Positions 6,867 to 19,141 of a stretch of 64,000 nucleotides of DNA are shown here, piece after piece. The first letter of the stretch is position 1; each line of letters starts with the position of its first letter. Made by a program: the position numbers and the translations under genes. The stretch is from positions 62,001 to 126,000 of the forward strand of contig NZ_JAUNOQ010000004.1 in assembly GCF_030531065.1 (NCBI RefSeq). The letters run 5' to 3'. The stretch comes from Phascolarctobacterium sp. (GTDB lineage Bacteria; Bacillota; Negativicutes; Acidaminococcales; Acidaminococcaceae). The notes under the pieces were generated by a model that did not search any database, was not told the origin of the DNA, and saw nothing but the letters and a program-made list of their open reading frames with translations.

Positions 6867-7568
6867 TTATTTAGCAGCTTCCTGCTCAAGCAATCGCTGT
6901 ACATCAATAGCCCTGCCCTTATACCGGCAGTTTGGTGCGCCAAGGTAAACGCTTTCCGATTCGTTATAGTTAAACCGTACCTCATTAACTCCCGGATGAA
7001 GCTTCACCGCCTGCCCGCCATGGCTGCAATAAATATCTTGCTGCCAAAAATCTGACTGCTGCAGCTCCATCTGCAAAATCAATTTATCATTGCAAAGGCT
7101 TCCATGCACATCGTGCAGCGTCCAGCTGTATTGCCAATCCAGCGGATGTATATAATCCTTGGTGCAGTGGTTTAAAGCAGAAAAATCGTTAGTATCGCTT
7201 GCCAGCTCATTATCCCCTTCCAACAAAAACATCTTGACGAAAACTTCGCCGCCGCTTTTGTCAATCTGCATAAAACCGCGTTGGTTCAACACCTGCATAA
7301 ATTCGCTAGGCATCATATCCAACGCCTGCAGAAGTTCCCGGAAATTATACAAAGCGTAAGTATCGCCTGTTATATTGTTGTACAGTACCATGGTACTGCT
7401 GCCGTCCGCCAGCAATTCTGCGTCGATGATGATATGCTTAGTATTATTATCGTTAGTATGATAGAAATGAAACCGCTTATCTTCTATATTTAGCTTCAGC
7501 TGCTCGCTACCCTCTTTCCGCCTCACAGCGTTAGGAAATATATAAAAATTTTTCAAAATATCCATCAA
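6867..7568 (-). CDS. Unrecognised protein, last gene of the radical-SAM cassette
   Basis: A 233-residue soluble protein that I do not recognise. It overlaps the preceding radical SAM gene by 4 bp (ATGA), implying translational coupling. No signal peptide or membrane segment is visible. The N-terminal half is rich in aromatic beta-strand-like segments; Cys residues at about 136, 160, 183 and 213 are scattered and form no known motif. Coupling to a SPASM enzyme suggests a substrate, a chaperone or a structural partner, but nothing in the sequence decides. Confidence 0.6.
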   Translation of the reverse strand: MMDILKNFYIFPNAVRRKEGSEQLKLNIEDKRFHFYHTNDNNTKHIIIDAELLADGSSTMVLYNNITGDTYALYNFRELLQALDMMPSEFMQVLNQRGFMQIDKSGGEVFVKMFLLEGDNELASDTNDFSALNHCTKDYIHPLDWQYSWTLHDVHGSLCNDKLILQMELQQSDFWQQDIYCSHGGQAVKLHPGVNEVRFNYNESESVYLGAPNCRYKGRAIDVQRLLEQEAAK

Positions 7569-8527
7569 GGCACCTCCAATGTATCCAGCAGCGCTCTATT
7601 AGCTTCGTATATGCCAATAAACCAGCTATACAGCCGTTTGTAAAAGCTGCACTCTAAATCGTGAGCCAAGCTTTTTACGCATGCGCCGCCGCACATTTTA
7701 TATACCGCGCATTGCCGGCAGCCCGGAAATTTATTTGTAATAAATTCCGCCTGCCGTTTCTGCCAGCTATCCTTCTGCAATTTATCGTCACGAATATACA
7801 GGCACGTAAAACGGCTGCCCTGCGCATCTATTTTTTGTAAGCTGCGGTTAACGCAATAAGTTTCGCCATATTCATATTCCGCCCTGTAGGCGCGCGCCAG
7901 TTTTGTGTAAAGCCCTATATAACGCCTGTTAATCACGCCTCTTTTATAATCTGCAATAAAGCTGCCTACGCATTCCTTGTACTGCCGTAAAATATCTTCG
8001 TAATCTTCGGCAGTCAAGGCATAACGGGCATTATAGCTGTTGGTATGATGCACTATATGCGGAAAGAACGATAAATTACGCCCAATGAGCTTTTCCTTCA
8101 GCGCAAAGCTCTTGATTATCCTTTGAAAATTAGTATTGCCATGGTACAGCGTACAGCTTACGGCTATCCACGGATAATTGATAAGCTCCGTAAAAGGATC
8201 GAAGCCGCGCAAATCGTCCTCTGCACCGTCGTAGCTGATACAGATTAAAAATTTATGCTTACGAAAAAAATCAAGGTATTGCTTAAGGTTGATGCCGTTA
8301 GTGGAAACGGCGTATTGAGCATCCGGCGCGGCGGCTACGACCTTTTCTATTTCCTTCAGATAAAGCGTAGGTTCCCCGCCCATAAATTTAATGCGGATAT
8401 CGCTGCGCCCGCGCACATAATCAAGCAAATTATCGCTTACGCCGCTTTCAATCTCAGAAGCTTCTCTATGACAATAAGCACAGTTTAAATTGCACCTGCT
8501 TCCCAAATAGATCGTCAACGCTTCCAT
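7565..8527 (-). CDS. Radical SAM/SPASM enzyme B of the phage cassette
   Basis: A 320-residue protein with the radical SAM cluster motif C12-x3-C16-x2-C19 (CNLNCAYC), the GGEP SAM-contact motif at 50-53, ISYDG at 97-101, and a full C-terminal SPASM domain: Cys 225, 242, 270, 273, 279, 283 and 293 (C-x2-C-x5-C-x3-C-x9-C). SPASM enzymes carry auxiliary 4Fe-4S clusters and mostly modify peptides or proteins (family knowledge). Its start shares one base with the stop of the 278-residue protein and its end overlaps the 233-residue gene. It differs clearly in sequence from the first enzyme of the cassette, suggesting a two-step or two-substrate reaction. Confidence 0.88.
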   Translation of the reverse strand: MEALTIYLGSRCNLNCAYCHREASEIESGVSDNLLDYVRGRSDIRIKFMGGEPTLYLKEIEKVVAAAPDAQYAVSTNGINLKQYLDFFRKHKFLICISYDGAEDDLRGFDPFTELINYPWIAVSCTLYHGNTNFQRIIKSFALKEKLIGRNLSFFPHIVHHTNSYNARYALTAEDYEDILRQYKECVGSFIADYKRGVINRRYIGLYTKLARAYRAEYEYGETYCVNRSLQKIDAQGSRFTCLYIRDDKLQKDSWQKRQAEFITNKFPGCRQCAVYKMCGGACVKSLAHDLECSFYKRLYSWFIGIYEANRALLDTLEVP

Positions 8528-9363
8528 TAACCTTCACCGCCCAAGCACAAGCCGTAATCGTTCCATACCTCGTACCATTTACGCCCAAGCTTAATTTTAA
8601 TGGCCCCGGTATAGCCAAAAGGATATAATCTAAAGCTGCCCTTGCCGTTTTGCAAACGTACCCGGCGGTTATTACATAAGCCGGCGCTGCACTCAACCAT
8701 TACTTCTTCATCGTCAATATCGCGGGCTAATTTTTCTATAAAATTGCCCTTGTATTTTTGTATAGTAAATTCTATATAATCCGCGCCTGCATCCGGCTGC
8801 AAAGCAACTTCAAAATCACCCTCCAGAGGAAAGCCTTTGCGGTTGGCTTTAAATTCGTACCCGCCAGCCGATAAGGAATAACTGTCCCATAAGGTCATGC
8901 GCGGGTGATCACCCAATACTAAATCGTCGCTGTTGAATGGCAAAAGCTCATAATCCTGATCCGCATCGATTACAAGCTTATCCTTATTTACCTCAAACAG
9001 GCGCACAATAATATCTTTTTCTTCAGCAGCCATAACGCCGGTATCGACCTGAATAATATTACGCGTACCATAAAGCTGTCCCAGCTTGGCAAAATCCATT
9101 TTTATAGAAACGCCTAAGCGATTCAAATCCAGCCATTTAAAGGAACTGGAGCTAATCTGCCGATAGATTTTTACGCTGCCTTCTTTAGCGATCAGAACGT
9201 AAGAATTATAGGGCAGCATATTTTCAACAACGTCCAGACCGGTAATTACTGGCGTTTCTTCCTCAGACCCCTGCTTTACCTCTGCGCGGCAATAGCTCCC
9301 CTTAATTTGTAATTTAACGTCAATATCAGCGTTGCTTTTCGTATTATAGTAAATCTTTAACAT
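8527..9363 (-). CDS. Unrecognised beta-rich protein of the radical-SAM cassette
   Basis: A 278-residue protein I do not recognise. The predicted pattern is nearly all short beta strands with an immunoglobulin-like or tail-domain look; Cys occur at about 25, 235, 240 and 273, and the C-terminus ends in YGLCLGGEG. It follows the Hint-like gene by 9 bp and shares one base with the start of radical SAM gene B, so it is tightly coupled. It may be a virion component decorated by the enzymes, or a scaffold protein; both are guesses from context. Confidence 0.6.
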   Translation of the reverse strand: MLKIYYNTKSNADIDVKLQIKGSYCRAEVKQGSEEETPVITGLDVVENMLPYNSYVLIAKEGSVKIYRQISSSSFKWLDLNRLGVSIKMDFAKLGQLYGTRNIIQVDTGVMAAEEKDIIVRLFEVNKDKLVIDADQDYELLPFNSDDLVLGDHPRMTLWDSYSLSAGGYEFKANRKGFPLEGDFEVALQPDAGADYIEFTIQKYKGNFIEKLARDIDDEEVMVECSAGLCNNRRVRLQNGKGSFRLYPFGYTGAIKIKLGRKWYEVWNDYGLCLGGEG

Positions 9364-9372
9364 TCTGCCACC

Positions 9373-9762
9373 TCACAGCTTAACGCAATAGTCGTTTACA
9401 AAGATATTTTCTCCATCTTCCACAGTCAATTTATAACCTTCTCCACTTTCTTCGCTTAATAATATTTTATCCTGAACTACGCGATAATTCGGCAGCGCCA
9501 TACTAACAGCACCATCCCTGAGTTGCTTTACGCCGTCAATGCTTACGGCCGACCTTGCCCCATAAGCAGTAAGCAGCACTGCATCCGCAGATAAAACAGC
9601 TGCGTTACGCGAAAACTTCAATACACCTTCTGCTGTCTGCCGTTCGATTTTCAGCAGCTTACGCGCCCTATGGCCGCGGTCCACAAGCAAATCTCCTTCC
9701 TGCAGCTCCTCTACGGGTATCGGCCCTTTACTGGTATGCACATTACCTTTGATTACTAACAT
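9373..9762 (-). CDS. Stand-alone Hint (hedgehog/intein)-like protein without the nucleophile
   Basis: A 129-residue protein with a Hint-fold pattern: VHTSKGPIPVEELQEGD near the N-terminus matches block A of inteins (normally C..gT.v.t.dG...i.el..GD), and the C-terminus YKLTVEDGENIFVNDYCVKL matches the 'y.l.v....n.fvn' end block. In this alignment the start Met takes the place of the catalytic Cys1, and no His-Asn pair ends the domain, so classical splicing or autocleavage is unlikely. Its start overlaps the end of radical SAM gene A by 7 bp. It might serve as a peptide-binding or processing partner. Confidence 0.6.
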   Translation of the reverse strand: MLVIKGNVHTSKGPIPVEELQEGDLLVDRGHRARKLLKIERQTAEGVLKFSRNAAVLSADAVLLTAYGARSAVSIDGVKQLRDGAVSMALPNYRVVQDKILLSEESGEGYKLTVEDGENIFVNDYCVKL

Positions 9763-10868
9763 GACGCTTCCTCCTTGTTTATTAGCAATTCATAACCCTT
9801 TTGCAGTAATATTTCTAAAGCAGGAACAAATAACGCTCTTTGCAGCTTGCAATATTCCGTTTTATCCCGCACCAGCTTGCAGCCGCCCTTGCAAAACGCC
9901 AAAGCCTCGCAGGCAAGACACTTCTGGCGATGACGCATAAGCGTTTCTCCGGCCAAAATATTTTGCAGGTAAGTAAAAAAATCGCTATATATGCTGCCGG
10001 CTTTTTCCCTGACGTTATGGCAGGCATATAGATTGCCCTTCAAATCTACGTTTAAAACTGTCAAACCGTTACCGCAATACGCCGTCTGCCTTCGTACCTG
10101 CCCTCTTTGCTTTAAATAAAACTGGCTTGCCTGTCGAAGAATGCTTTCCATATACGCCATTTTAATACTATTCCCCACCCTGGCCTGTTCTTCTGCAATA
10201 TTGGTTACATACGCCGATGCCAGCTGGCGCATTTCACAAGATACGCGCTCATAATCGATATGCAGAAGCCAACGGTTAGTAAGCCCGGTATCCATGATTG
10301 CATCCAGATTGACAGCCAGCGGATGCCCTTGTAACGCCTGGTATTCATCAGAAAGATGCTGAAATGTTTCTAAAAGCTCCAAAGGGTAAGCAGCGGACGA
10401 AATAACGCCGGAGACACCTAAATGACGTATACGCAATAACCTGGCTTTTAATTCACCCTGAGCAAATACGTCGCAGCCTCGCGTGTTCTTCGTTCTGTAC
10501 CCGTCCCATGAAATAGTAACGGAAAAATCGTGCACGTTGAAAAAATCTACTATTTCATCTGTAATAGCTTTGCCGTTGCTTATCACTCCATAGCCTAACG
10601 GCAATCCACGTTTTTCGGCTTCCACAACAATTTGCCGGATAGCAGAAAAATACAGCAGCGGTTCGCCGCCGTAGAATATCAGCCGAAGCCTTTTACCGCC
10701 AGTTTCCTGCGATATCTGCCCAAAGAAATCGTAAATATCAGGATTGATTTTTTGCGTAAGTTGCCCGTTTACTAACGGGTGCTGTAAGCAATAAGCACAG
10801 TTCATATTACAGCTATTGCCCAGCATAATATAAATACGGTTGATACGCCGTTGTAAAAAGCTTTTCAT
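9756..10868 (-). CDS. Radical SAM/SPASM enzyme A of the phage cassette
   Basis: A 370-residue protein with CNMNCAYC (Cys 20, 24, 27) for the SAM-binding 4Fe-4S cluster, GGEP at 67-70 and TISWDG at 118-123. The C-terminal SPASM domain has Cys 265, 283, 317, 320, 326, 330 and 340 with the classical C-x2-C-x5-C-x3-C-x9-C spacing. It resembles peptide maturases of the anaerobic sulfatase-maturase/sactipeptide class. It is the first gene of the cassette; a ribosome site GGAGGTGACC precedes the ATG. It lies just after the tail-tip genes in the late operon, with the RelBE pair inserted on the opposite strand between. Confidence 0.9.
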   Translation of the reverse strand: MKSFLQRRINRIYIMLGNSCNMNCAYCLQHPLVNGQLTQKINPDIYDFFGQISQETGGKRLRLIFYGGEPLLYFSAIRQIVVEAEKRGLPLGYGVISNGKAITDEIVDFFNVHDFSVTISWDGYRTKNTRGCDVFAQGELKARLLRIRHLGVSGVISSAAYPLELLETFQHLSDEYQALQGHPLAVNLDAIMDTGLTNRWLLHIDYERVSCEMRQLASAYVTNIAEEQARVGNSIKMAYMESILRQASQFYLKQRGQVRRQTAYCGNGLTVLNVDLKGNLYACHNVREKAGSIYSDFFTYLQNILAGETLMRHRQKCLACEALAFCKGGCKLVRDKTEYCKLQRALFVPALEILLQKGYELLINKEEASC

Positions 10869-10888: not shown

Positions 10889-10917
10889 TTGACAACGCTT
10901 GCGAGTTGTATTACAAT
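10889..10917 (+). promoter_or_regulatory. Promoter of the toxin-antitoxin pair
   Basis: Perfect TTGACA, a 17-bp spacer and TACAAT, 27 bp before the antitoxin start. It points against the late operon. Confidence 0.8.
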
Positions 10918-10944
10918 ATATTACAAAGAAAGGCGGTGTTTACT

Positions 10945-11169
10945 ATGACCACCATATCCGTAAGACTTAACGACCAGGACAGCGAGTTCATCAAAAAATA
11001 TGCCGAATTTAAAAATATCAGCATCTCCGAGCTTATCCGCCAAGCCGTTATCGAGCGCATTGAAGACGAAATTGATATTCGCGCTTATAACAAAGCCATG
11101 GAAGAATACAGGAAAAACCCTGTAACCTATACTTTGGATGAGATAGAAAAGGAGTTAGGCTTAGAATGA
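10945..11169 (+). CDS. RelB/DUF6290-type antitoxin
   Basis: A 74-residue ribbon-helix-helix protein. The start at 10945 is chosen for its AAAGGCGG site; an upstream in-frame ATG at 10906 overlaps the promoter. The N-terminal MTTISVRLNDQDSEFIKKY is the RHH DNA-binding strand/helix and the C-terminal YTLDEIEKELGLE is the toxin-binding tail. It overlaps the toxin gene by 4 bp. It should neutralise the RelE-like toxin and repress its own promoter. Confidence 0.87.
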   Translation: MTTISVRLNDQDSEFIKKYAEFKNISISELIRQAVIERIEDEIDIRAYNKAMEEYRKNPVTYTLDEIEKELGLE

Positions 11170-11429
11170 ACTACCGCGTAGTTTTAACTCCAAATGCCAA
11201 AAAACAGCTAAAAAAACTGGATAAGCATACGACCACGCTTATCATAGGTTGGTTGCGTAAAAACTTAGAAGGCTGCGCTAACCCACGGCAACATGGCAAA
11301 GCGCTGACTGCCAATCGCAGCGGCCAATGGCGTTACCGCGTTGGCGATTACCGTCTTATCGCCGAAATCGAAGATGATAAAATCATCATTCTAATTCTTG
11401 CTATAGGGCACCGTCGCGAAATATATTAA
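11166..11429 (+). CDS. RelE/ParE-superfamily toxin
   Basis: An 87-residue basic protein with the family layout: MNYRVVLTPNAKKQLKKLDK at the start, a central GKALTANRSGQWRYRVGDYRLI segment and the final IIILILAIGHRREIY. Such toxins cut mRNA on the ribosome. It is translationally coupled to the antitoxin (ATGA overlap). The pair sits within the late region, antisense to it, and probably stabilises the prophage. Confidence 0.9.
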   Translation: MNYRVVLTPNAKKQLKKLDKHTTTLIIGWLRKNLEGCANPRQHGKALTANRSGQWRYRVGDYRLIAEIEDDKIIILILAIGHRREIY

Positions 11430-11448: not shown

Positions 11449-11482
11449 AAGCTGTATGGCATTTTGGCCGTACAGCTTTTTT
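11449..11482. terminator. Bidirectional terminator between toxin gene and tail-fibre gene
   Basis: AAGCTGTAtGGC pairs with GCCgTACAGCTT around ATTTTG; TTTTTT follows on the plus strand and TTAAAATTTTTT on the minus strand. If efficient on the minus strand it would reduce read-through from tail genes into the radical-SAM cassette. Confidence 0.8.
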
Positions 11483-11487
11483 GCATA

Positions 11488-12879
11488 TTAAGAATCGTCG
11501 CCGCAGTCGCAATCACAATCACAATCACAATTGCAGTTGCTTAAAGCTTTCACAGTAGTATGCGTATGGCTTTTGTTAACCAATTGCTGTAAAAGAGCTG
11601 CAACAGTATACGTTCCTGCCGCTACGCCTGCTATTGTATTATATCGACCTTGAGTTTTATTACCACTACCAGTTGTTGACGTATAAGTATTGCTCGTAGC
11701 GTAAGTAGTGTAAGCCGCCTGAGTACTTTTTGTCACCGTAACTTTTGAACTTGCAGCCGAAGCTCCCGTCGCGCCGGTTGCACCGGTTGGCCCCTGTGGT
11801 CCGGTTTCACCTTGGTCGCCTTTATCCCCTTTCGGCCCTTGCGGTCCCATCTCCCCGGTATCCCCCTTGTCGCCTTTGGGAATAACAAAATTTAATGTAG
11901 CTTCCTGCTCCGTCCCCACGTTTTCTACTACAGCTTCAGTACCTGCTTCTCCGGTCGTAACTGTACCTATGGTAATTGTTGCCGCGCTGCCTATAGCGCC
12001 GCTTTCGCCCTGTTCCCCCTTATCGCCTTTATCACCTTTAGGGCCTTTAATATTAACCGTCGCCGGATTATCCAATCCCGCCGCATTTGACCACGACAAA
12101 TCGCCTTCTTCAGATACGGAAGGTACAAAGACATTAACGTGTTTGGACGCATATTCAGCGGCTTCAGCCGAAGCCGCTGCTTCTGACGCGCTGGTTGCCG
12201 CGTTTCCCTCTGACGTTACCGCCGATAATGCCGAAGACGCTGCCGCATTCGCAGAATTAACGGCAGCAGCCTCACTATTAGCAGCGTTTACTTCTGACGT
12301 TTTAGCGGCAGCTGCGCTATTAGCAGAAGCCGTCGCTGCATCAGCGGCAGCTTGTGCGCTTGCTGCGCTAGCCTGTGCGCTAGCTTTACTTTCCGCTGCG
12401 CTGTCGGCAGCTTCTCCCGCCCATGTCTTAGCAGACTTTGATCCGCTGACATTATCGGGGGCACTATCGCTTTCTGCCCATTCCTGTGCCGTTCCCGCCC
12501 AAGTTTTAGCAGACCGCGCCCCTACTACATTATCCGGCTCTGTGCCGCTTTCTGCCCATTGCCTTGCCGTATCGTTCCATGTTTTACTAGAGCGCGCGCC
12601 TTCTACGCCGTCCGGTTCGCTTTCGCTCTCTGCCCACTGGCGCGAAACGTCGCTCCACGTTTTAGAGGAACGCGTATTTTCCCCGGCTGGCGGTAAATCG
12701 CTTTCAGCCCAGGCTTCAGCCATATTCTGCGCTTCCTTAGCGCTGGCGACGGCAGCTTCGGCTTCGTCCTTATAAACGCGCGCCTGTTCCGCAGTATAGT
12801 CGTCCATCGGCTCGGCAACTTCCACCGCCGCGTTATCAATAACTTCTACCTCTACTTCTACACTCGTAGTATTAGACAT
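11488..12879 (-). CDS. Tail fibre with WAES repeats, collagen-like segments and a C-terminal CxC tract
   Basis: A 463-residue fibre. In order: acidic N-terminus, helical segment, four repeats of about 25 residues around 'WAES...P......(R/K)SxKTW' (residues 57-155), a long Ala/Ser-rich coiled coil (156-245), two collagen-like Gly-x-x blocks (279-293, 335-372), a threonine-rich linker, then a module GTYTVAALLQQLVNKSHTH (422-440) and the tail CNCDCDCDCDCGDDS with cysteines at 449, 451, 453, 455, 457 and 459. The same module and tract end another tail protein at 13209-13847. Likely trimeric and at the tail tip for host binding. The cysteine tract is highly unusual for a fibre and may be a modification or metal site. 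Confidence 0.88.
   Translation of the reverse strand: MSNTTSVEVEVEVIDNAAVEVAEPMDDYTAEQARVYKDEAEAAVASAKEAQNMAEAWAESDLPPAGENTRSSKTWSDVSRQWAESESEPDGVEGARSSKTWNDTARQWAESGTEPDNVVGARSAKTWAGTAQEWAESDSAPDNVSGSKSAKTWAGEAADSAAESKASAQASAASAQAAADAATASANSAAAAKTSEVNAANSEAAAVNSANAAASSALSAVTSEGNAATSASEAAASAEAAEYASKHVNVFVPSVSEEGDLSWSNAAGLDNPATVNIKGPKGDKGDKGEQGESGAIGSAATITIGTVTTGEAGTEAVVENVGTEQEATLNFVIPKGDKGDTGEMGPQGPKGDKGDQGETGPQGPTGATGATGASAASSKVTVTKSTQAAYTTYATSNTYTSTTGSGNKTQGRYNTIAGVAAGTYTVAALLQQLVNKSHTHTTVKALSNCNCDCDCDCDCGDDS
11491..11538 (-). repeat. In-frame hexanucleotide repeat encoding the Cys-Asp tract (fibre)
   Basis: Alternating (A/G)A(C/T)-TG(C/T) codons give N-C-N-C followed by four D-C units, then GDDS. 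Three GAT-TGT units are exact repeats. Slippage would change the number of Cys-Asp units without breaking the frame. Confidence 0.85.
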
Positions 12880-13207
12880 TATGCGCCACCCCCTTTATGG
12901 TAAACGCCTTTGTAAAAAAGCAGGTCACTATTTTATCCGTCGAACTATTTATAATTGCCGTATCGTAGATATACGCGCCCGGCTCCAGATTATCCAAAGC
13001 GCCTTTTGGTACAACAACATCGACATAATTATTTCCAGCGTTATAAAAGCTTGCTTCATACATAACTTCTGTAGAATTAGTCGTCGCTTTTATGGCAAAA
13101 ACAAATTTATCGTCGGCTGTCAGCAAATAATTTTTTAGCTTAAACCTAATAGAGAAGGTATCAAAGCGCGATACCGTTATATTTTTATTATTATCAATTT
13201 CTATCAT
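12872..13207 (-). CDS. BppU-like baseplate/fibre-associated protein
   Basis: A 111-residue protein. The start at 13207 is chosen because GGAGG lies 8 bp upstream (inside the end of the previous gene); a longer frame would overlap that gene. The pattern (MIEIDNNKNITVSRFDTFSI, then beta strands, ending in a conserved FTIKG) resembles the N-terminal domain of phage baseplate upper proteins (BppU). It lies between the two CxC-tailed proteins and overlaps the fibre start by 8 bp. It probably anchors the fibre to the tail tip. Confidence 0.6.
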   Translation of the reverse strand: MIEIDNNKNITVSRFDTFSIRFKLKNYLLTADDKFVFAIKATTNSTEVMYEASFYNAGNNYVDVVVPKGALDNLEPGAYIYDTAIINSSTDKIVTCFFTKAFTIKGVAHNV

Positions 13208-13208
13208 A

Positions 13209-13847
13209 TCAAGGTCCTCCGCTGTCATCTCCACAATCGCAATCACAGTTACAGTTATAGTTATAAGAATCTCTCACATATTCCTGTGTATGACTCAAAT
13301 TTACAAGATGCTGGATAACTCTTCGCAGTGTATATGTACCTGCGCTTAATCCCTTATGCGTTCGTATCCTGCCCCTGGTACTTGTTATATCACCTCTGCC
13401 ACCGCTATTCATAGTAGAATCATAGCTTGAAACACTGCTTACAATCGCGTCCCTTTCCGGCTGTGTGCTGCTGGTCACAGTAATTTCCGCCATATCCAGC
13501 AAGCGATCGTCAGTCAGCGTGCCTAAGCCGTTATAGCTTACCAACACTACCTTGCCTGCGTCAGCAGCATTAAACAGAAGCGTACCGGTATTCCAATCGG
13601 CGATACCGTGCTCCGTAGTATTGTAATCCGGCCAGTATTGCCCCTGCGCCGGTTGCGCTGCAACCTCCGTCAGCGCCGCGCCGCTGGAATACTTTACCCT
13701 GAGTGTAGTAGGGTCAGTTTTCTGCGGCACTTCGTTTAAACGAATGGTATAAGGGCTGCTAGTCGGCACGGTGTGCTTCTCATTATTTATAGCCCTGACG
13801 TTAAAAGTACCTAAAAACGGATCCAACCTGTAATCTACTATAGCCAT
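13209..13847 (-). CDS. Tail-tip protein with C-terminal CxC tract
   Basis: A 212-residue structural protein with an N-terminal beta-rich region (residues 1-130), then a linker, the module GTYTLRRVIQHLVNLSHTQ (170-188) and the end NCNCDCDCGDDSGGP with cysteines 199, 201, 203 and 205. The module and tract match the end of the 463-residue fibre although the rest of the two proteins is unrelated. I do not recognise the N-terminal domain beyond its resemblance to tail proteins; the place after the hub-like gene supports a tail-tip role. Confidence 0.75.
   Translation of the reverse strand: MAIVDYRLDPFLGTFNVRAINNEKHTVPTSSPYTIRLNEVPQKTDPTTLRVKYSSGAALTEVAAQPAQGQYWPDYNTTEHGIADWNTGTLLFNAADAGKVVLVSYNGLGTLTDDRLLDMAEITVTSSTQPERDAIVSSVSSYDSTMNSGGRGDITSTRGRIRTHKGLSAGTYTLRRVIQHLVNLSHTQEYVRDSYNYNCNCDCDCGDDSGGP
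13221..13256 (-). repeat. In-frame repeat encoding the Cys-Asp tract (second tail protein)
   Basis: Codes for N-C-N-C-D-C-D-C-G-D-D-S, two D-C units shorter than the fibre copy. The flanking DNA differs from the fibre copy at synonymous sites, so the two tracts are not a recent perfect duplication. Confidence 0.8.
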
Positions 13848-13850
13848 ATA

Positions 13851-15086
13851 TTAACCTCCTTTCAGCTGCTTGATGGCCGACTGCTGCGCCTGCTCCATAT
13901 CCGCAGCCTTGCGTTCTATGCCTAGCAGGTACTTATCTACCGCGAAAACAGGCTCCCCTAACTCAAGGTCTGCCTTAATACCGTCCGTTCCCGAAATGGT
14001 ATAGCTGATTTTCGTTATCGGATAAGTCTCTGCTTTGCCGTCAAGCCTGCGGATTTCCGCCTGTCCGTCGGTACTCATATGCCTCACGTTAAACGTCCCG
14101 TCCGGATAAGGATATTCCAGCTTGACATTTTTCACTTTGGCCGATTTTACAGGGGCCTTGTACTGCGCAATCTGATTCTGTCCCCAGCGCTGCGCGTCAG
14201 CCACCTCATAAGCAGAAGGCAGATCCCATATTTCCTGCCGCAGGCCGTACTCCTTCTGGCTGGCGGTATCTTGTACCGTGCATAGCCAGGCTTCGCCTTC
14301 ATCGTCGATGTTGCCGCCCTTAATCCTTGCCCAGTTCACCACCTTGCTGGCGTCCCACGACGGGCTGTAGGAGCCGATATGCTTGCCTACCGTCAGGCGA
14401 GCCTGTTCGTTGATTTTCGTATCGCGCGGCTTAAAATAAATACTGCGGTATTCGTCCACCCCGTATACATAATCTAAAGCGAAATCTGTGAGCGTATCCA
14501 ACGCTTCTGCCGCCGTTACGCCGTCAAAAACAATCTTTGCCGGCTTATAGCCTACGTCGGGAATTTTAACCGCGTTATATACGAGCCCCTGCGCTTTTTC
14601 CGCCTGGCGGGCAATATCGCGGGCAATCTCGCCTACATCTACGTTTTCATAGGTTTTAAAAATCAAAATATAGTCAAGCTTATTGTAGTACCCGTAGCCG
14701 GTAAATTTGTACTCCGTATCCGTTGTTCCTTCGACGGGCCGCGTCAGGATATAACCGCTGTACCACGGCTGCGAATCGCCGAAAAGATGGATATCAATGC
14801 GCTGCATATAATCAAGGTCCGTATTGCCGGGCAGCTTCTTAAAAGACAGCTGACACTGCCCGCAGCCGGTATTAGTAATTTCAAATTTCAGCTGGCTGAT
14901 AGCGTTGCCTTCGCTGCCGCTACCGAAAATTGCGGTTTTAGTCCCGTCTTTGGCGTAAGCGATAACCGTATATTGCCCAGGATAAAATTCCAGAACCTTG
15001 CCGCGTTCGCTGTCTGAGCCGCTGCCGTTAAGCCTGCCTGCGAATATACTGCGCCCGTATGTGCCTCTACCGTAAAGAAAATTCAT
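13851..15086 (-). CDS. Tail hub-like/tail-associated protein
   Basis: A 411-residue protein following Dit with an ATGA overlap at 15083-15086; GGTGG precedes this ATG, so I prefer it to the GTG at 15095. Sequence features are a beta-barrel-like N-terminus, a 'DIARDIARQAEKA' helix and a mid-domain 'GVTAAEALDTLTDFALDYVYGVDEYRSIYFKPRD' like tail-hub (gp27-like) proteins that read an assembled ring. It probably forms the trimeric hub below the Dit ring, to which the tip proteins attach. No lysozyme domain is present. Confidence 0.65.
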   Translation of the reverse strand: MNFLYGRGTYGRSIFAGRLNGSGSDSERGKVLEFYPGQYTVIAYAKDGTKTAIFGSGSEGNAISQLKFEITNTGCGQCQLSFKKLPGNTDLDYMQRIDIHLFGDSQPWYSGYILTRPVEGTTDTEYKFTGYGYYNKLDYILIFKTYENVDVGEIARDIARQAEKAQGLVYNAVKIPDVGYKPAKIVFDGVTAAEALDTLTDFALDYVYGVDEYRSIYFKPRDTKINEQARLTVGKHIGSYSPSWDASKVVNWARIKGGNIDDEGEAWLCTVQDTASQKEYGLRQEIWDLPSAYEVADAQRWGQNQIAQYKAPVKSAKVKNVKLEYPYPDGTFNVRHMSTDGQAEIRRLDGKAETYPITKISYTISGTDGIKADLELGEPVFAVDKYLLGIERKAADMEQAQQSAIKQLKGG

Positions 15087-15874
15087 ACAAACCACCTGTT
15101 GGTAAATGTAATCTCTACCCTGCCTGCGCCGCCGGTATAAAGCAAAAGGTTTGCTCCCGGCTTAGCGTGCAGGAACTGCCCGCTGAAGGTGTTGATACTG
15201 TTGGCGTTGTCGCGCCACACCGTCCCGTCCTTGCTGTTGATAATGGCTGTCGCAGGCTTAATCAGCAAGGCGTCGGTCAGAGTAAACTTTTCCTTGGCTT
15301 CCTGGTGCCATATGGTTATACCGGACATTTTATTGGCAGGGATAAATTTAAACGTCAAAGGCGTATCCACGCTGCCAAGGTTATGCAATACCATCTCGGC
15401 TTCAATAGTCGGCTGTCCGAATTCATATACCACTTTGCTCTCCTGCGCTTCGTAACGGAACGGATCGGTAAGCAGTAACGAAACCGTAATACTGCTCCAG
15501 CGCTGCTTGAAGCTTTTCTGAAACTTATGCTTGATTTTTGACAGCCCGGCTACATGATAGACGCGGTCGCTGCGCCCGCACGTAAGCTTATAATCCGTCA
15601 TTGAAAAGTACGTATACGCCTGGTTAAGCGCTTCGTCATGGTCTTGCTCAGTCGCTTTACGCATATCAAATTCAACGGTTATCGTGCGCCCGCCAACTTT
15701 CCCGTCGCCTACCATGTCGCTGCCATGCGTAAAGGCGCGCGACTGCAGCTTATTACGAAAAGTGTAACTACCACTATCTGTAAGGCTCCAAGCGAAAGGC
15801 AGAGTATATTCCCGCCCATCCTTGACAATGCGTAACGCCTCATAGGCTGCCTGATATTTAGCCCGCTGTTTCAT
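15083..15874 (-). CDS. Distal tail protein (Dit-like)
   Basis: A 263-residue protein; the start at 15874 has an AGAGGTGG site and follows the tape-measure stop directly. The N-terminal domain shows the belt-like phage tail family pattern (GGRTITVEFDM, LNQAYTYFSMTDYKL, SITVSLLLTDPFRY), and the C-terminal part is a galectin-like beta domain. Dit forms the hexameric ring at the end of the tail tube. Order tape measure, Dit, hub is standard for siphoviruses. Confidence 0.82.
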   Translation of the reverse strand: MKQRAKYQAAYEALRIVKDGREYTLPFAWSLTDSGSYTFRNKLQSRAFTHGSDMVGDGKVGGRTITVEFDMRKATEQDHDEALNQAYTYFSMTDYKLTCGRSDRVYHVAGLSKIKHKFQKSFKQRWSSITVSLLLTDPFRYEAQESKVVYEFGQPTIEAEMVLHNLGSVDTPLTFKFIPANKMSGITIWHQEAKEKFTLTDALLIKPATAIINSKDGTVWRDNANSINTFSGQFLHAKPGANLLLYTGGAGRVEITFTNRWFV

Positions 15875-15875
15875 T

Positions 15876-18827
15876 TCAACCACCTCTAAGTCCGGCCAGC
15901 AGCGTTTCATTAAATTCATCAAAAAGCTCTTCTACATCGTTGCCGGTATTGATATCGCCATAGTTGTACAGATTAGCAGTCAACGCTACTCCTCCTGCTT
16001 CCGGACTACTACTTGCGCCAAGCGTCGGCCTATACGTTGCCATACCCACCATCGCCGGGTTAATACCACTGCTAAGTATAGAAGCCGTTTCTCCCGCAGT
16101 ATAAACCATCCCGGGTCGCGTAAAGTTTACCAGTTCCGGACCTTCTTCTCCGACCAGCGTAAGCCCTTTGCGTCTGCCGCCTGTAGCCGCGGCGCCAATC
16201 CCCAAAGATGCAATGCCGGCCGCTGTCATTGCAGCTACAGCGCCGCTATAAGCTGCCATACCGGTCAACGGTCCGCACACGGCTATAGATTTCTGCACAG
16301 CCGGAGCTACCAGAGCCTTGCCTTCGGCTAACGCCCTTGCTGTCGTTTCGCCTTCTTCCTTTTTTCCCAGCGCGCTTTCCAACAGCGCGGCCGCCTGGCG
16401 TTTAACCATAAACTGTACGAACATATTGACTATATTTTTGCCGATGTCCTGCAAAGTTTTACTAAAACTGCCGCCCTGGGTAATCAAATCAGCAAAACCG
16501 CTGGCCAGTTGGTTTTTAATACTCTCGCCTGCCTGCAATTCAAACTCCAGCATTGTCTGCTGGCTTTCCATGCGCCAGTCCAGAAGCTGCTGCCGCAGTT
16601 CCTGTTCCTGCTGCAAGGCAACCAGCTTCGCTTCCTGCTCGCTGTTAAGGTATTCCAGAAATTGCTCATAGGACATTTCGTTCATGGCTTCCTGTTGCGC
16701 AGCCTTTAAGGCCTGAAATTCAGTCAGTCTTGAAAGCGCCTGCTCATTGGCCTGCTGTTCTATCTGATCGCGAAGCCCCAGGACAACCTGCCCGTGCTCT
16801 GTTTCGTACCCTTCGGCGGTTTTAAGCGCCTCCTGGTACAACGCATTGCGGTCGTTATAAAGCTTTTCGGCGTCCGCAATAGCCTGGGCGTCGCCTGATT
16901 GAGCAGCAGCCGCTCTGTAAGCTTCGGCTTCGTCCACGGCGCTCTTCTGCTTTGCCAGCTGCTCGTCTACCGCTGCTAATCTGGCGTTCTTTTCATCTTT
17001 TATTTTTTGGTAAACCTGATCGTAAGCGCTCATATCCTCGAAAGCAACGCTGGCATTAAGCTTATCCCAGTTATCCGTCAAATCCTGAGTAGCCGCGCTG
17101 CTCTTGGCAAGCGCTTCTGTAAGGCGCTGTAATTCCGCCTCTTTTCTGCTTAAATCGTCGCTGCCCCTGGCTCCAGAACTGCTTTTCGGCGTGCTAATAG
17201 CAGGAGCAGCAACGTCGGCCTTTGCTTTTGGTATAGGAGAATCGCTGGCCGCATTATCATCGTCGGTGTTGGCCATGGAGCTTTGCCAATAACTGTCGCT
17301 CATAATCTTCTGCTGAGCGGAAAACACCTCGCGAATCAAATCAAGCGCCTTGCCCGCCCAACTGGTTATCAAAGCAAGAGCGTTGTCGCAGGCGCTTTTG
17401 ATGTCGTTCACCCAATCCGGCGTATAGCCCATAGCGCTTTCCCACATTTCGCCAACCAGAGAGACAACGCTGCCTGCCATTCCGGCAATAGCAGCCGGCA
17501 CAGCGGCCACCAGCCCCGTAACGGCAGAAAGTACGCCTGCTATGCCTATTCTGGCGGCATCAAGCGCAGCTTCCGTAAAATCGTCCCAATAAACAACAAC
17601 GGCGCTAACCATTGCCCCTAAGCCTGCAACGGCGGCAATAGCAGGAGCGCTAATGCCTATCGCTGTCCCGATGGCAGCAATTGCCGCAGCAGTAGCTGCG
17701 ACAAGCGTTACGCCTACAACGGCCGCCACGGCGCCTATCGCCGCTATTACGCCCGGCGGTACGGCTTCAGCAAGCGCTTCAGTTAAGCTTTTACCTTCCT
17801 GTTGCGCTTGCCGGAAGCTTTCGGTAATATTGCCCAAAGCTTCGCTGATTCCTTGCAGCTTATCCTTGATGTTAAAGGCTTCCACCATATAGCTGCCCAT
17901 GTTGGCCGCGAAGGTTCCCGCCGTTTCTTCGATATTGGAAAACAAGCCGTTGATGCTGGTTTCCATCTTACTCATCATACCGCCGAAATTGGCGTCCATA
18001 CTGGCTGTAATAATCTGTACGGCCTCGGCGCTGTCAATCATGCCCTTCTCGGTCAGATCTTTGATTTCGGTAATACTTTTACCATAAGCCTGGGACAAGG
18101 CTTCCCATACGTTGATGCCAGCCGTGGCCAGTTGGTTTACGTCCTGCGTTTTCAGCGTGCCGCTGGTGGATATCTGTCCTAACGCGTAGCCCATCTGCTG
18201 TACGCCTGCGCTGCCCTTACCTAAGCCTGCCGCGGCGTCGCCCAACGTTCGCAACGTAGGTATAATTTCTTCCGCTTTAAACCCGAAAGCCATTAACTGT
18301 TGAGCAGTCTCTACTACGCCTGGCACGTCAAACGGCGTTTTAGCTGCAAATTCCTGCAAATTCTTCAGCATCTGCGTACCGCGACTTGCAGACTTAAGCA
18401 TCGTTTGAAAAGCAATCTCGTATTGCTCCATCTGCCCAGCGGCTTTAATGCAGCTTACGCCTGCTTCTGCGATGCTGCTGGCAATGCTTCCTACTACTCC
18501 TAAAGTCGCAGCTCCAGCTAAGGCGTTCATGGCATTATTCATATCTGCCATATTCTGCGTAGCCTTTTTAGCCGCATCGGCAGCCTTGCCCATACCCTTG
18601 CTGATAGAATTTCCCGCCGACGTAGCCGCGCTGCCTATTTTAGACATCATTCCAGAAAGCTTGCCAGTATTTCCCTGCCCTATGCTTTCCAGAGCTTGCT
18701 TTGCCTGCTTTCCGGCTGCTTCTATTTTGGAAGCGCTGTCCTCGGCGACCTTGGCCGTACCTTTCAAAGCGTTGACGGCACTTCTGCTATCGCCGGAAAT
18801 AATAATTTCTATGTTTTTTTCAGCCAT
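15876..18827 (-). CDS. Tape measure protein
   Basis: About 983 residues from the ATG at 18827 (a GTG at 18839 is less likely since the AGGAAG site abuts it). The N-terminal third is Ala/Lys-rich helix, followed by the tape-measure domain (FDVPGVVETAQQLMAFGF, LGKGSAGVQQMGYALGQI, LKTQDVNQLATAGINVWEAL), several hydrophobic helices (about 355-460), then long coiled coils and a C-terminal region with GGRRKGLTLVGEEGPELV. It sets tail length, roughly 150 nm by the usual 0.15 nm per residue rule (inference). Confidence 0.95.
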   Translation of the reverse strand: MAEKNIEIIISGDSRSAVNALKGTAKVAEDSASKIEAAGKQAKQALESIGQGNTGKLSGMMSKIGSAATSAGNSISKGMGKAADAAKKATQNMADMNNAMNALAGAATLGVVGSIASSIAEAGVSCIKAAGQMEQYEIAFQTMLKSASRGTQMLKNLQEFAAKTPFDVPGVVETAQQLMAFGFKAEEIIPTLRTLGDAAAGLGKGSAGVQQMGYALGQISTSGTLKTQDVNQLATAGINVWEALSQAYGKSITEIKDLTEKGMIDSAEAVQIITASMDANFGGMMSKMETSINGLFSNIEETAGTFAANMGSYMVEAFNIKDKLQGISEALGNITESFRQAQQEGKSLTEALAEAVPPGVIAAIGAVAAVVGVTLVAATAAAIAAIGTAIGISAPAIAAVAGLGAMVSAVVVYWDDFTEAALDAARIGIAGVLSAVTGLVAAVPAAIAGMAGSVVSLVGEMWESAMGYTPDWVNDIKSACDNALALITSWAGKALDLIREVFSAQQKIMSDSYWQSSMANTDDDNAASDSPIPKAKADVAAPAISTPKSSSGARGSDDLSRKEAELQRLTEALAKSSAATQDLTDNWDKLNASVAFEDMSAYDQVYQKIKDEKNARLAAVDEQLAKQKSAVDEAEAYRAAAAQSGDAQAIADAEKLYNDRNALYQEALKTAEGYETEHGQVVLGLRDQIEQQANEQALSRLTEFQALKAAQQEAMNEMSYEQFLEYLNSEQEAKLVALQQEQELRQQLLDWRMESQQTMLEFELQAGESIKNQLASGFADLITQGGSFSKTLQDIGKNIVNMFVQFMVKRQAAALLESALGKKEEGETTARALAEGKALVAPAVQKSIAVCGPLTGMAAYSGAVAAMTAAGIASLGIGAAATGGRRKGLTLVGEEGPELVNFTRPGMVYTAGETASILSSGINPAMVGMATYRPTLGASSSPEAGGVALTANLYNYGDINTGNDVEELFDEFNETLLAGLRGG

Positions 18828-18835
18828 AACCTGCT

Positions 18836-19141
18836 TCACTTCCTATTCAGTTCCGCTTTAATAGCGTCGTCTTCCGCCGTCCATTTCTTCCGAAAGCGTC
18901 CGTCAGTGAAAATATCCTTAACCCCGATCTTGTTCTTATACGTCTTGCCTGCGCTATTGGCGATCCAAACTGTAACCAGGCTGGCCAAAATATTTTCAGC
19001 CTGCTGCCTGCGCCAGATATAGCCGTGCCACAAATTGATAATTTCATACGGCGTATAGCGCCCCGCCTTTTCTGGAGTCAGCTCTAAAGGCCCGTAAATA
19101 ATCCATTCAACGCTTTGCAGCCATTCCGCAAAGCTGGTTAC
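18836..19141 (-). CDS. Frameshift extension of the tail assembly chaperone (T part of a G/GT pair)
   Basis: About 101 codons in the -1 frame that continue the chaperone past its stop, starting VTSFAEWLQSVEW and ending AELNRK just before the tape-measure start. There is no good start codon or ribosome site at its beginning. The slippery heptamer A AAA AAG at 19141-19147 lies in the correct phase immediately before the zero-frame TAA. The fused product would be about 228 residues. This matches lambda G/GT, where a minor frameshift product recruits tail tube protein to the tape measure. Confidence 0.85.
   Translation of the reverse strand, partial: VTSFAEWLQSVEWIIYGPLELTPEKAGRYTPYEIINLWHGYIWRRQQAENILASLVTVWIANSAGKTYKNKIGVKDIFTDGRFRKKWTAEDDAIKAELNRK

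Follow-up and report, generated by a model that had tools for sequence, protein, structure and literature searches.

Cysteine-repeat ends of phage tail proteins as probable sites of modification by adjoining radical SAM/SPASM enzymes

Two tail proteins of a prophage in Phascolarctobacterium sp. end in Cys–Asn/Asp repeats, and genes for two radical SAM/SPASM enzymes lie downstream of them. We propose a phage-encoded, RiPP-like maturation of tail tips, in which the repeats are probably the sites modified by the downstream enzyme or enzymes, most likely through thioethers. Action of the downstream radical SAM enzyme on the Cys tip peptide is highly probable, its strength being that of an association, which by itself is not proof of direct enzyme action; a role of the tip in adsorption or in tip stability is rather likely, and for thioether chemistry at the tip we regard the balance as even. 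Phage radical SAM genes are usually annotated without a target, and our search of the open-access literature turned up no earlier account of tail proteins being modified by radical SAM enzymes. In the present case we can name one, the final dozen residues of tail proteins, in phages that come from sewage, environmental metagenomes and Negativicutes of the gut. If true, the proposal would mean a new post-translational chemistry in virion assembly, with RiPP chemistry employed to build the receptor-contacting parts of the virion. Modified tips would then be detectable by mass spectrometry in cultured phages (Achromobacter phages JWF and 2-1), a simple sequence rule would find further cases, and the tips may furnish short C-terminal tags by which peptides could be cross-linked enzymatically.

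The window (the whole stretch of DNA analysed, 64,000 nucleotides) holds a siphovirus-type prophage with an integrase, primase/helicase, terminase, portal, and major head and tail proteins (Table 1). Both Cys-tailed proteins are encoded downstream of the YqbQ/Tal-like gene, with the PHROG 1084 protein in between, and are followed on the same strand by enzyme 1, a Hint-like protein, u278, enzyme 2 and u233, in that order and tightly packed or overlapping. A ParDE-like pair of a DUF6290/RHH antitoxin and a ParE-type toxin (10906–11429, + strand) is inserted between the fibre and enzyme 1 genes. It is accompanied by a promoter-like site (11/12) at 10889, and positions 11449–11478 contain a strong terminator-like stem. 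Most of the relatives of enzyme 1 that carry a name come from the Acidaminococcaceae (Acidaminococcus and Phascolarctobacterium), and several of the carrier genomes belong to the window's own family, which suggests a Negativicutes host of this group.

Table 1. Coordinates of the tail genes, Cys-tailed proteins and neighbouring cassette in the window
Feature	Position	Strand	Basis
Tape measure	15876–18839
Dit	15083–15922
YqbQ/Tal-like protein	13851–15086
Second tail protein, 212 aa, module and Cys end; directly after YqbQ/Tal-like gene	13209–13847	−
Shared module of second protein, residues 121–192	13272–13487	−
Cys repeat end of second protein, NCNCDCDCGDDS	13221–13256	−
Small tail-region protein, 116–124 aa, PHROG 1084, kept in relatives; between the Cys-tailed proteins	12872–13222	−
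Tail fibre, 463 aa	11488–12879	−	Pfam Collagen 1.6e-9; PHROG tail fibre matches
Shared module of fibre, residues 379–447, contains SHTHT	11539–11745	−
Cys repeat end of fibre, NCNCDCDCDCDCGDDS	11491–11538	−
Radical SAM/SPASM enzyme 1, 370 aa, CNMNCAYC	9756–10868	−	NCBIfam matches; alignment of 15 sequences
Stand-alone Hint-like protein, 129 aa, without catalytic Cys	9373–9762	−	Pfam Hint_2 2.6e-5, below cut-off; alignment of 9 relatives
u278, conserved partner protein, 278 aa, predicted Ig-like beta-sandwich domains	8527–9363	−
Radical SAM/SPASM enzyme 2, 320 aa	7565–8527	−
u233, conserved protein, 233 aa, tied to enzyme 2, two predicted beta-sandwiches	6867–7568	−

The fibre consists of WAES-type repeats, an Ala-rich stalk, a collagen-like GPKGDKGD stretch, the module and the Cys end. 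It terminates in SNCNCDCDCDCDCGDDS, that is NCNC(DC)4GDDS (n = 4), and the second tail protein in NYNCNCDCDCGDDSGGP, that is NCNC(DC)2GDDS (n = 2). An earlier note on this DNA had given the two proteins a common C-terminal module with n = 4 and n = 2; both open reading frames and their endings bear this out, and BLASTP aligns fibre residues 379–452 with residues 121–200 of the second protein (33/80 identities, 41%, E = 3e-10), a value that rules out chance similarity. The homology is longer than the span given in that note (411–463 and 160–209), as it covers about 80 residues from 379 and 121, respectively. The module itself starts at about residue 379 in the fibre (VTVTKSTQ...) and 121 in the second protein and has a size of about 75 residues, the Cys end being additional; it gave no match in Pfam or among solved structures.

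The fibre repeat is encoded by AACTGC AATTGT GATTGT GATTGT GATTGC GACTGC and that of the second protein by AACTGT AACTGT GATTGC GATTGT; three consecutive GATTGT units were counted in the fibre's own DNA, and exact copies of any single hexamer are few in both repeats. In relatives, the repeat codons are scrambled synonymously and the peptide is retained; one fibre ending is represented by 15 copies in six synonymous DNA forms, from a scan that had selected on the peptide. Since synonymous changes scramble the codons while the peptide stays, the motif is not maintained by slippage, which was thereby rejected as the principal explanation, and the pattern fits a repeat maintained by selection on the peptide. 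Of the suggestion that the hexanucleotide repeats expand and contract by slippage, what survives is that slippage may supply variants and that recent events may have occurred in the window. The number and order of NC/DC units vary across families and among close relatives (e.g. L124 versus L162), and Achromobacter phages JWF (NCNCDCNCNCS) and 2-1 (NCNCDCNCS) are one NC unit apart; as anticipated, repeat number is variable among related phages and is not constant in all homologues.

Enzyme 1 carries the residues of a radical SAM/SPASM enzyme. The CX3CX2C cluster motif (C20, C24 and C27) and seven SPASM cysteines (C265, C283, C317, C320, C326, C330 and C340) are invariant in 15 sequences, and the SPASM domain (TIGR04085) scores 39.3 bits, above the cut-off of 27. 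The best NCBIfam match is PapB (NF047865; 2.8e-30, 105.7 bits, below the cut-off of 340), although this model is short and the match may be generic; PapB is also the best match for the radical SAM proteins of every phage group tested. The second match is the QhpD family (TIGR03906; 5e-26, 91.3 bits, below the cut-off of 453), and the gene sits in a phage context with no qhp operon. By sequence, the closest solved structures are CteB (5wgg, E = 7e-30), 8vpo and a sulfatase-maturating enzyme, with the epimerase YydG also among them. PapB joins the Cys sulphur to the Asp beta carbon in Cys-Xn-Asp with n = 0–6, with both in-line and nested rings (PMC9413430), and QhpD forms three Cys-to-Asp/Glu thioether bonds within a protein subunit (PMC7876137). 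Owing to this range of spacings and nested rings in PapB, the CD, CxxD and CGDD spacings of the tips are chemically plausible. Cys-to-Asp/Asn thioethers are considered the most likely product on two grounds: Cys is paired with Asp/Asn in the substrates, and such chemistry is that of the nearest characterised maturases. Asn, the commonest partner residue in the tips, is not known to serve PapB as an acceptor.

We envisage that enzyme 1, perhaps with enzyme 2, would modify the Cys-rich tips during assembly by forming thioethers between the sulphur of Cys and an adjacent Asp (or Asn) side chain. The module before the repeat is a candidate enzyme docking or folding element, and the product would be a compact, rigid, redox-proof, cross-linked tip on each fibre, contacting the host. 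It is possible, though somewhat unlikely, that the enzyme acts on the tip by other chemistry, such as epimerisation of alternate residues, the kind of Cys oxidation that matures sulfatases, or sactionine thioethers, which attach at the alpha carbon. Cys recurs strictly at i, i+2 with either Asn or Asp in between, which recalls alternating L/D peptides, many cassettes hold two different radical SAM enzymes, and the closest solved structures include the three kinds of enzyme named above (CteB, sulfatase-maturating enzyme and YydG). Nevertheless, the best family matches are Cys–Asp/Glu thioether maturases, and epimerisation has no need for Cys at every second residue.

The relatives of enzyme 1, drawn from IMG/VR, the window's class and named genomes, lie no more than about 3 kb from a tail protein that shares the module and has an end of the NCxC type. 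The endings beside them include NCDCDCTDDS, NCNCNCDCSDDS, NCNCDCNCDCGDDT and NCDCDCGDDM; immediately before the enzyme of an Elusimicrobiota MAG, the ending is NCNCDCNCGCCADS. All relatives with at least 39% identity adjoin a Cys-tailed protein. At L103 the neighbour is a different protein, with NCDCNCDCDC, at L102 there are only small Cys-rich proteins, and the exception found is a deep relative of the enzyme, L027 (Elusimicrobiota MAG, 7851–9861), where the homologues of enzyme 1 and u278 have no Cys-tailed neighbour within 8 kb. Conversely, among 381 genomes from the class, 11 have the module, and none of these 11 lacks a radical SAM gene, the scores being strong in eight and weaker in three (G040, G046 and G306). 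The two are adjacent in at least 10 of the 11; in G063 one is located at either end of the same contig, which is consistent with adjacency across the origin. Viral loci anchored on u278 have both the Cys end and the enzyme.

Other Cys-rich proteins were observed at some of these loci. A 165-aa protein near the radical SAM gene of L103 (8510–9004) has a long GD repeat after NCDCNCDCDCSSDCDCSSDCDC and is without the tail module. Right after enzyme 1, L011 (9058–9825), L020, L021, L023, L024, L102 and L334–L337 encode two small proteins that contain long runs of CQxCQ (CQTCQGCQSCQ...); many of these proteins end in NCNCDC..SDDS. They are missing from the window and are likely to be further substrates.

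The association was also counted from the peptide itself. When every IMG/VR contig was scanned unconditionally for DNA that encodes NC[ND]C[ND]CDC, 91 stretches emerged. Among the motif-bearing open reading frames of at least 90 aa (n = 74), 62 have the motif within 15 residues of the end, six directly before Hint (CFxxGT) and four directly before Peptidase_S74. A radical SAM reading frame on the same strand and no more than 1.7 kb downstream (median about 1.1 kb) accompanies 60 of the 64 fibre-like reading frames that have at least 1.7 kb of downstream sequence, compared with 0/75 for a control pattern of four Gly-Cys units. The fibres with the motif form about 15 families, 14 of them with the enzyme; IMG/VR contigs are redundant and include many close relatives, so that families, not loci, are the fair count. 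The Cys end is kept at L134, L154 and L161 with no radical SAM gene within 2.3–4.6 kb downstream. The reverse was checked by scanning with the N-terminal body of the 212-aa protein alone, which recovered relatives with and without the Cys end. In those with it, the enzyme is present wherever the contig reaches far enough, whereas in those with other C-terminal domains instead (L348–L351) a radical SAM gene was found in 0/4, with 11–16 kb checked. The Cys end and the enzyme are inherited together and lost together.

These counts bear on two explanations in which the enzyme leaves the tip alone. The earlier note had offered a metal-chelating tip in place of enzymatic modification: Cys and H-x-H ligands from three fibre chains would hold Zn or Fe, and the radical SAM genes would serve another purpose. 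The needles, spikes and short fibres of phage tails include examples of H-x-H metal sites with His-bound iron, soft metals are bound well by CxCxC, and the Cys end comes after SHTHT or a comparable H-x-H in the window fibre and in L101, L117, L151, L006, L007, L022 and L026. The window fibre is like the metal-tip fibres in this H-x-H but differs from them by the Cys–Asn/Asp repeat and the coupled radical SAM genes. The second tail protein reads SHTQ at this place, with one His only and hence no H-x-H, and a metal tip leaves unexplained both the fixed Asn/Asp partners and the radical SAM genes that trail the motif in unrelated fibre families and disappear with it. A preference for a metal tip is not supported in view of the co-occurrence of Cys ends and radical SAM gene (60/64 versus 0/75, about 14 families) and their joint absence in body homologues, and we consider an unmodified metal tip quite improbable. 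Likewise very improbable is a disulphide-linked or disordered sticky tail on which the enzyme is idle, the linkage reflecting hitch-hiking in one mobile cassette. Tail-tip regions are indeed swapped as cassettes, and many of the IMG/VR matches are close kin; however, about 14 fibre families, three protein architectures and several clades of the enzyme, with identities as low as about 25%, are involved, and the repeats are scrambled synonymously with a conserved peptide. Mere hitch-hiking within one phage lineage was ruled out by the unconditional scan and the body homologues that lack both tail and enzyme.

Enzymatic maturation of the tip, which we prefer, is similar in part to several known systems. 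The first is the PapB/PapA ranthipeptide system (NF047865), whose enzyme is a radical SAM/SPASM protein of the same general family with a Cys- and Asp-rich substrate (PMC9413430), but that substrate is a short leader peptide, whereas here it would be the end of a large tail protein in which Asn alternates with Asp. The second is QhpD/QhpC of quinohemoprotein amine dehydrogenase (TIGR03906), in which thioethers are likewise placed in a structural protein and not in a free peptide (PMC7876137), although the substrate is an enzyme subunit with a removed N-terminal leader and has no repeat motif. The SCIFF maturase CteB differs in acting on a short six-Cys peptide in clostridia. In pelagimyophages (SAR11 phages), radical SAM cassettes occur in the host recognition cluster, beside tail fibres (PMC7029224); unlike here, the passages on these cassettes make no link to a Cys motif and propose no tail modification. 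The short precursor and removable leader of RiPPs are also absent, the substrates here having 212 and 463 aa; the CQxCQ proteins of relatives come closer.

In fused forms of the fibre (L141, L148, L151, L191, L322 and L323), the Cys repeat is followed by an intact Hint domain with an N-terminal CFxxGT. Hint and Peptidase_S74 are self-cutting domains, and phage fibres that terminate in them shed the C-terminal domain by self-cleavage. The difference here is that the cut would leave a Cys–Asn/Asp tip, after which comes a radical SAM gene. Because the trailing domain is a self-cutting Hint or S74, fused fibres would be cut just after the Cys repeat, and the mature C-terminus would be the repeat in every architecture, either encoded as the end or bared by the cut. 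In the isolated Achromobacter phages 2-1 (L322, 4682–8188) and JWF (L323, 1844–5365), NCNCDCNC(NC)S is immediately followed by a Hint domain whose Cys is intact, and both phages carry the fibre, a 240-aa protein and the radical SAM gene. By contrast, the window Hint-like protein is separate and without the nucleophile: it starts MLVIKGNVHT, lacks CFxxGT, and the catalytic Cys is found in none of its 9 aligned relatives. This Cys-less stand-alone form adjoins enzyme 1 in most of the window's phage group.

Whether these parts make up a widespread modular phage system could go either way; in it, radical SAM enzymes would put multiple Cys–Asp/Asn cross-links into mature fibre tips, Hint or S74 would bare the tip, and Ig-like partners, sometimes together with a further radical SAM enzyme or with a 2-oxoglutarate oxygenase, would complete it. 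The predicted structure of u278 comprises Ig-like sandwiches (pLDDT 83.5), with weak PDB matches to intimin/invasin and the phage Chi neck; its other matches are uncharacterised phage proteins. Fold searches with u278 and u233 gave no trustworthy enzyme-like match, and u233 was without clear matches. The C-terminal domain of u278 is homologous (hhalign 92%, E = 6.5e-7) to the protein between fibre and enzyme in the freshwater group, a large phage group labelled after its environmental contigs, and this homology ties that group to the window's phage group. The Achromobacter protein between fibre and enzyme was considered as a u278 relative and rejected, as no relationship was detectable. In environmental phages, a putative 2-oxoglutarate Fe(II) oxygenase (PF13759-like, below cut-off) is encoded near the Cys-tailed fibre at L118 (4612–5349) and at L134 (10180–10803), the latter with no radical SAM gene seen, and the putative oxygenase is present in some freshwater-group cassettes.
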